DNA of 64,000 bases from Nitrospiraceae bacterium. GTDB lineage: Bacteria; Nitrospirota; Nitrospiria; Nitrospirales; UBA2166. The position numbers and the translations under genes were made by a program. Position 1 is the first letter of the stretch. Each line of letters starts with the position of its first letter. Location of the stretch: positions 8,608 through 72,607 of the forward strand of contig PBSN01000025.1 of NCBI GenBank assembly GCA_002726235.1, written 5' to 3'. The notes under the pieces were generated by a model, which searched no databases, was not told where the DNA came from, and was given only the letters and a program-made list of their open reading frames with translations. Of the stretch, positions 62,924-63,780 are shown piece by piece.

Positions 62924-62952
62924 TTGCCCGCACTATACCTGCTTGTTATACT
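62924..62952 (+). promoter_or_regulatory. Promoter of smpB-ssrA
   Basis: TTGCCC (62924-62929), 17 bp spacer, TATACT (62947-62952). Transcription would start at about 62959, right at the smpB ATG (62960), so the mRNA would be leaderless. No ribosome site precedes that ATG, which agrees. Confidence 0.5.
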
Positions 62953-62959
62953 TCATATT

Positions 62960-63436
62960 ATGGAATCACGAAAGCCGCTCAGAACCGTCGCAACCAATCG
63001 CAAGGCCTACTACGATTACGCGATTGAGGACACCTTCGAAGCCGGTCTGGAGTTGCGCGGGACCGAAGTGAAAGCCTTGCGCGAGGGACGAGTGAATTTG
63101 AAGGAGAGCTTCGCACGCGTCGATCGCAATGAGGTGATATTGCACAATTGCCATATCAATGAGTATAGCCACGGCAACATCATGAATCATATTCCACGCC
63201 GCGAGCGAAGATTGCTGCTTCACCGAAAGGAAATTGATCAACTAGTCGGACAGACCCAACGGAAAGGCCTAACGTTGATTCCTCTGAAGATCTACTTCAC
63301 TGACCGGGGATTGGCGAAACTCCAATTGGCTCTAGCCAAGGGGAAACGCCAATACGACCGGCGTGAGGACATCAAGAAACGCGAAGACACACGGGAAATG
63401 GCGCGTGCCATGAAAGAAGAAAGGAGGGGGCGATAG
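62960..63436 (+). CDS. smpB: SsrA-binding protein SmpB
   Basis: A 158-residue beta-barrel protein that binds tmRNA and enters the A site of stalled ribosomes. Signatures: NRKAYYDYAIEDTFEAGLEL, GTEVKALREGRVNLKES, FARVDRNEVILHNCHI, and RGLAKLQLALAKGKRQYDRR (quoted in parts), with the basic, helical C-terminal tail EDIKKREDTREMARAMKEER needed for decoding-centre entry. The ATG at 62960 is the conserved start (MESRKPLRTVATNRK). Its last three codons and TAG (63434-63436) overlap the 5' end of ssrA by 11 nt. Confidence 0.96.
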   Translation: MESRKPLRTVATNRKAYYDYAIEDTFEAGLELRGTEVKALREGRVNLKESFARVDRNEVILHNCHINEYSHGNIMNHIPRRERRLLLHRKEIDQLVGQTQRKGLTLIPLKIYFTDRGLAKLQLALAKGKRQYDRREDIKKREDTREMARAMKEERRGR

Positions 63437-63780
63437 GCTTCGACGGGAACTAGTGGGTCAGGGCTGCATGTCGAGGTCCTCGGGTCCTCGTAAAACACCT
63501 GGGGAAACATTCAATTGCCAACGATAACTTGGCTCTCGCTGCATAATTAAGTAGCGACGTCCCTCATTCGATGTCTGTGCGAATGATCAGGATGGCATAA
63601 AGCAGGCTGGTCTGACTTCTGGGCTCCAGGGGAGAAAGACGAGACGATACTGGGCTAGCAACCATTCTGAGCCGTGTTGCGGGGCATGGATGGGCGCGAA
63701 CTTCAATACTGCGGCTACACATGTAGATGTCTTGTGCTGACGGTTTTCGGACGCGGGTTCGATTCCCGCCGCCTCCACCA
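63426..63780 (+). ncRNA. ssrA: Transfer-messenger RNA (tmRNA)
   Basis: 355 nt. The acceptor stem pairs GGGGGCG (63426-63432) with CGCCTCC (63770-63777 region), one G-T wobble included, ending in encoded CCA (63778-63780); the T arm GGTTCGATTCCC precedes it. GCTTCGACGGG near the 5' end is the conserved tmRNA D-loop segment. The resume codon GCC at 63517 opens a tag reading ANDNLALAA with TAA at 63544-63546, ending in the ClpXP-type ALAA. tmRNA rescues ribosomes from truncated mRNA with SmpB. No promoter of its own is visible just upstream, so it probably arises from the smpB transcript. Confidence 0.95.

Follow-up and report, generated by a model that had tools for sequence, protein, structure and literature searches.

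The DNA analysed here, a stretch of 64,000 nt referred to as the window, comes from a small uncultured Nitrospirota bacterium (genome G000; assembly of 1.87 Mb in 27 contigs) and carries smpB followed on the same strand by ssrA (Table 1). One tmRNA above the family cut-off and one smpB gene were found in the genome. The SmpB product matches the NCBIfam models NF003843 (211.4 bits, cut-off 130) and TIGR00086 (191.9 bits, cut-off 119.1) and includes the tail through RAMK, and the tmRNA covers the complete RF00023 model (1-374 of 374, 191.3 bits), with the tag ANDNLALAA followed by a stop codon identified by ARAGORN. The tmRNA acceptor stem includes a G3-U70 pair, and an encoded ACCA comes next at 63777-63780. 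A TTG at 62924, upstream of the smpB ATG, was rejected as a start codon, as it would fall within the predicted promoter and the alignment begins at the ATG at 62960.

Table 1. Features of the smpB-ssrA junction in the window.
Feature	Position	Strand	Basis
Predicted smpB promoter: -35 TTGCCC (62924-62929), extended -10 TG-T-TATACT (62944-62952)	62924..62952	+	Consensus scan
smpB CDS, 158 aa, ATG to TAG	62960..63436	+	ORF, NCBIfam SmpB equivalog models, alignment
Predicted RNase P cut	between 63425 and 63426	+	tmRNA 5' end by ARAGORN/Rfam and acceptor pairing; smpB frame
ssrA, one-piece tmRNA, 355 nt, CCA encoded	63426..63780	+	ARAGORN; RF00023 191.3 bits, E 1.9e-76
11-nt overlap: smpB end and tmRNA nt 1-11	63426..63436	+	ORF, ARAGORN, Rfam; recurs in G003, G002
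tmRNA acceptor stem, 5' strand GGGGGCG	63426..63432	+	Pairing with 63770-63776; Rfam alignment
tmRNA tag frame ANDNLALAA and stop	63517..63546	+	ARAGORN; nt 92-121 of gene
tmRNA acceptor stem, 3' strand CGCCTCC, then A73 and CCA to 63780	63770..63776	+	Rfam alignment

The first-pass annotation of this DNA had reported an 11-nt overlap between the two genes, with the smpB stop codon inside the tmRNA acceptor stem. The overlap itself was confirmed, the TAG being located at 63434-63436 and the tmRNA start at 63426 by both ARAGORN and Rfam, and GGGGGCG does pair near the tmRNA 3' end, where CGCCTCC provides a 7-bp partner. The wording on the stop codon had to be rejected because TAG occupies tmRNA nt 9-11, directly beyond the 7-bp stem. 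The whole 5' strand of the acceptor stem falls inside the overlap, though the stop codon does not. On the smpB side, the overlap takes up two bases of codon 156, codons 157-158 and TAG. As in Carsonella, the two genes share a strand and the smpB stop codon falls past the start of the tmRNA.

The window genus is represented by four genomes and is the sole genus sampled in its family. Alignment of related junctions found the overlap conserved: the sequence GGGGGCGATAGG, with a spacing of -11 and TAG at tmRNA nt 9-11, is identical in all three congeners that have smpB (G000, G003 and G002), the SmpB proteins of G003 and G002 being 95% and 80% identical to the window protein, respectively. Neither smpB nor a tmRNA gene is present in the assembly of the fourth congener, G001, which is 88% complete. 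As the same -11 junction occurs in two other species, chance or an assembly artefact at the window junction is ruled out, and the overlap is not an isolated sequencing accident.

In E. coli, RNase P generates the tmRNA 5' end (PMC3985003). The window genome encodes both components of this enzyme (rnpB RNA, 309.4 bits; rnpA protein, 76.2 bits), and cleavage at the position given in Table 1 would, as previously claimed, strip smpB of its stop codon, along with two bases of codon 156 (AGG) and codons 157-158. After the predicted cut, the smpB mRNA would retain a single base of codon 156 (the first) and no stop codon, and its product would end in ...RAMKEER. The function of the SmpB tail is well supported (PMC3929946). 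In the alignment, the tail is conserved through RAMK, and the conserved part is wholly upstream of the predicted cut. The SmpB proteins of relatives lacking the overlap end 2-6 residues past R-A-M/L-K, before the point that matches the cut, and hence the truncated SmpB would be as complete as family members normally are. ArfB, which the genome also encodes (169.7 bits versus a cut-off of 100), could in principle free SmpB stalled on such an mRNA in a functional form without a tag. The non-stop arfA mRNA of E. coli is made by an RNase III cut (Garza-Sanchez 2011 and Chadani 2011, as reviewed in PMC3985003). The segment at 63380-63450 has no unusually stable RNA structure (z = -1.0), and a hairpin at the end of smpB was therefore rejected, both as an RNase III site of the arfA kind and as any other signal for processing.

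The best promoter-like site in the 560 nt upstream of the tmRNA gene is found at the same position in G000, G003 and G002. It consists of an extended -10 element, TGTTATACT, with a -35 element at 17-18 nt, and scores 13.0, 12.2 and 12.1, respectively, relative to a 95% level of 10.6-11.5 for shuffled sequences. In the alignment of the three genomes, TTGTTATACT forms a conserved block amid an otherwise variable region upstream of smpB. The last base of the promoter is 7 nt before the ATG, which predicts an smpB mRNA with no leader or almost none.

The first-pass annotation had named a dedicated ssrA promoter within smpB as evidence that would speak against its proposal. In the last 120 nt before the tmRNA, the best promoter score is 1.1 in G000, versus a shuffle median of 2.9, and 1.2 in G003, also under the shuffle median, while G002 has a weak candidate (6.5 versus a 95% level of 7.4) at a position that is not shared. 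Thus, a sigma-70 type ssrA promoter in the 3' end of smpB was not found in G000 or G003 and is merely weak in G002. The premise of the annotation that smpB and ssrA are co-transcribed is favoured by promoter prediction, given the conserved smpB promoter together with the lack of a convincing ssrA promoter. It is rather improbable that ssrA instead has its own, unrecognised promoter inside smpB, such that most smpB mRNA would never be cut. Some relatives do lend themselves to this explanation, as G144 (L109) and G185 (L118), where the spacer is +1, have TGnTAAAAT, a possible ssrA promoter, 56-59 nt before the tmRNA and inside smpB, and a site above 95% of shuffles is present in 17 of 44 junctions with a spacer of at least 20 nt; nothing comparable is seen in G000 or G003, and the weak G002 site lies elsewhere. 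A promoter inside smpB that is not of the sigma-70 type may exist, and this possibility counts against a single unit.

Relatives in the sister family (f2) have spacers of 29 and 88 nt with a TATAAT located 13-16 nt ahead of the tmRNA, and hence a spacer promoter looks to have been lost in the window genus, on the polarity that we infer. The simplest history would be that the window genus lost the spacer and the ssrA promoter together and now relies on the smpB promoter, the junction thus having arisen through loss of elements that the sister-family relatives still keep.

Taken together, it is reasonably probable that smpB and ssrA are one transcription unit in which tmRNA maturation by RNase P produces a non-stop smpB mRNA, with the resulting SmpB either tagged or released by ArfB. 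The unit would be read from the promoter at the smpB start codon, and the primary transcript would consist of the smpB CDS and then the tmRNA, without a leader or spacer. Each transcript could first be translated into full-length SmpB. RNase P would have to act after the tmRNA portion has been completed and has folded, and its cut, 11 nt within the smpB frame, would leave a stopless smpB mRNA. Ribosomes left on the cut fragment would become substrates of tmRNA-SmpB, with their SmpB tagged A-ANDNLALAA. Rescue by ArfB instead would give SmpB minus its last residues, RGR, still full length relative to the family. If the two genes are co-transcribed, as the promoter evidence favours, a non-stop smpB mRNA is what the layout of the junction predicts, and it would likely be a by-product of tmRNA maturation. 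RNase P requires the acceptor stem, and the 3' half of this stem is not made until transcription has gone 344 nt past the smpB stop codon, so that early ribosomes should finish SmpB before cleavage. With pioneer ribosomes outrunning the cut, maybe only a minority of SmpB would be tagged, and it is most natural to expect a modest fraction with the tag.

To survey junctions in the phylum, tmRNA and SmpB were located among 245 Nitrospirota genomes, and junctions were read where the two genes are adjacent, with extra searches in the families of three overlapping genomes; the junctions come from the matches listed and constitute a sample. Overlaps were found in 7 of 74 sampled adjacent junctions (distinct genomes, among the matches listed), spread over four families. 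In addition to the three -11 junctions of the window genus, these are G085 (family f24, -1), G152 and G282 (two different genera of family f29, both -1) and G233 (family f32). The overlap thus originated in at least four families. In the -1 class (L116 in G085, L121 in G152 and L176 in G282), the last G of the smpB TAG doubles as tmRNA G1 (TA/G), and RNase P cleavage would therefore leave an mRNA ending in UA. A scan of 395 genomes with the tmRNA-start pattern TAGGGGGCG returned 21 matches, of which only the three known -1 cases are in frame with a neighbouring smpB.

Searches for bacterial RNase P RNA type A and for RnpA gave no match in G085, G152, G282 or G233. Certain Nitrospirota are known to rely on the protein enzyme HARP alone (PMC8266387, PMC6380272), and HARP may therefore be the cutting enzyme in these four genomes, which are probably HARP-only lineages where HARP would have to mature the tmRNA.

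The spacers of the 74 junctions run through -119, -11, -1, +1, +5, +7, +8, +10 and up without a break, and the overlap is therefore the end of a continuous range. This is what would be expected if the overlap arose by neutral erosion, with the spacer and the ssrA promoter lost by deletion and smpB then ending at the first in-frame stop codon inside the tmRNA. Enough SmpB would be made before cleavage and the non-stop remnant would be cleared by trans-translation, in a phylum where these two genes are tightly packed. We give this explanation an even chance, and it accounts for the anatomy of the overlap equally well. The overlap length varies by family (-11, -1 and -119), which argues against a conserved device, and in the window codons 152-154 (AAA GAA GAA) are one substitution away from upstream stop codons that would end the overlap; with such stop codons available, persistence of the overlap is weak evidence either way. 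Against neutral erosion, the -11 junction has been kept in three species with SmpB differing by up to 20%, but this persistence alone proves little because tmRNA constrains both sides. Similarly, the occurrence of the overlap in four families allows, but does not require, a benefit.

A benefit could take the form of a feedback valve of the ArfA type, with SmpB output falling when trans-translation is active, because SmpB made on the cut mRNA would receive the tag, and rising when it is weak via ArfB-released SmpB minus RGR. All of the parts are encoded in the window genome, including the overlap, RNase P, ArfB and a tag ending in ALAA, and the truncated SmpB would keep the conserved tail. There is also precedent in E. 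coli ArfA, which is controlled through a non-stop mRNA and released in a functional truncated form when trans-translation is weak (PMC3985003), and the same has been proposed for Carsonella (PMC4131195). However, the RF-1-domain matches in G085, G152, G282 and G233 are not ArfB-like by eye, with that of G233 below the ArfB cut-off, and the ArfB branch therefore cannot be general. A regulatory valve is considered unlikely, and the self-limiting SmpB loop put forward in the first-pass annotation would depend, like any regulatory value of the overlap, on the co-transcription, cleavage and tagging predicted above.

The G233 junction (L129/L158, contig G233:C116) differs in that the smpB tail after REIE is gone and smpB lacks a stop codon of its own. 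The frame stays open through the 5' part of the tmRNA and is in frame with the tag, reading ...YTSANNELALAA and then a stop codon. G233 is a single metagenome assembly and the only genome of its genus, and on this one assembly translation of an uncut message is predicted to yield SmpB with the tag, ANNELALAA, already at its end, while a cut message would stop in a partial codon after REIE. A short AAAGG-like sequence is common to the smpB tails and tmRNA starts of relatives, and the fusion in G233 is therefore consistent with a deletion.

The promoter geometry at the window smpB recurs in the phylum. Of 76 smpB genes from Nitrospirota, 52 have an extended -10 element (TGnTAnnnT) located 5-9 nt ahead of the ATG, and 56 have a -10 element of some kind at 3-10 nt, where shuffles predict 12.3 for this second count. 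Several candidate ATGs were permitted per gene in this count, and the shuffles were handled identically. The loci with an extended -10 almost always lack a Shine-Dalgarno sequence (for example L109, L116, L118, L121, L129 and L176). In the window, the geometry is found in 1 of 65 ORFs, smpB itself, and in 2 of 55 comparison loci (L039-L101, mostly Rhodanobacter and its relatives, and other phyla), of which L039 is from Nitrospirota. The counts overstate the evidence because related genomes are not independent, but the motif still recurs in many families, and smpB is predicted to be leaderless over much of Nitrospirota. No report of leaderless smpB in Nitrospirota was found in the literature, represented mostly by titles and abstracts. 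A wider, speculative reading is that in several Nitrospirota lineages a leaderless, spacer-free unit sets the SmpB:tmRNA ratio via tmRNA activity, with ArfB freeing functional SmpB when trans-translation fails and the uncut G233 message giving SmpB with the tmRNA tag; we regard this as quite improbable.

An overlap of smpB and ssrA, with RNase P maturation producing a non-stop smpB mRNA and the same feedback, was previously proposed for Candidatus Carsonella ruddii (Hudson, Lau & Williams 2014, PMC4131195), and the idea is therefore not new. Mao et al. 2009 are credited with noticing the Carsonella overlap, as cited in PMC4131195. As in Carsonella, the smpB CDS in the window enters ssrA on the same strand, and maturation would be expected to yield a non-stop smpB mRNA. 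However, Carsonella is an insect symbiont with a degraded genome, its SmpB is without the central loop and C-terminal tail, and the overlap is present in only half of the strains, whereas the Nitrospirota overlaps occur in four families with genomes of 1.7-2.4 Mb and SmpB is complete in 6 of 7 cases. In the window genus, furthermore, the overlap is fixed and accompanied by a conserved, predicted leaderless promoter. Nitrospirota therefore provide a second, broader occurrence of an arrangement already known, this time with a complete SmpB, a conserved promoter of the predicted leaderless type and repeated origins.

In 2014, a survey of about 2000 genomes detected no overlap outside Carsonella (PMC4131195). 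No later report of one was found in literature consisting mostly of titles and abstracts, and the passages found of the 2025 tmRNA database update (PMC11915505) do not include a smpB overlap. New here are the overlap in four Nitrospirota families, the TA/G junctions and the read-through to the tag in G233, as well as the apparent loss of the ssrA promoter in the window genus and its predicted leaderless smpB-tmRNA transcript. Also new is that the conserved SmpB tail would stay intact after the predicted cut in a genome that encodes ArfB and RNase P. Even if the overlap is neutral, the survey changes the published statement that it is confined to Carsonella, extending it to four families with larger genomes and a mostly complete SmpB.

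The arrangement resembles arfA in that a stop codon would be lost in a programmed way to an RNA-processing enzyme, making expression dependent on tmRNA, and in that the truncated product may still be active. Unlike arfA, the enzyme would be RNase P, the cut would be needed for the tmRNA itself, and the target would be the partner of tmRNA. The window junction would therefore work like arfA but is not an arfA system, because the proposed cut is by RNase P. In Helicobacter, a FtsW/RodA-family gene overlaps a tRNA-Ile gene (PMC4131195, Table 4), and RNase P would likewise remove the upstream stop codon; such CDS/tRNA overlaps are unconnected to ribosome rescue and hence form no loop. If the proposal for smpB holds, ribosome rescue would be self-regulating through the ribosomes that it frees from its own mRNA, and a given transcript could serve tmRNA maturation or SmpB synthesis but not both.

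The natural variants, with spacings of -11, -1, +1, +10 and more than +20, provide material for assessing the cost of a lost smpB stop codon. In one genus (g60; L105-L108 and L110-L115), the spacer is exactly 10 nt in all 10 genomes read and consists of TGA and either TCTTTAACAA or TCTTTTACAA before the tmRNA, and a similar sequence, TCTTTTACAAT, precedes the Desulfopila tmRNA (L043).
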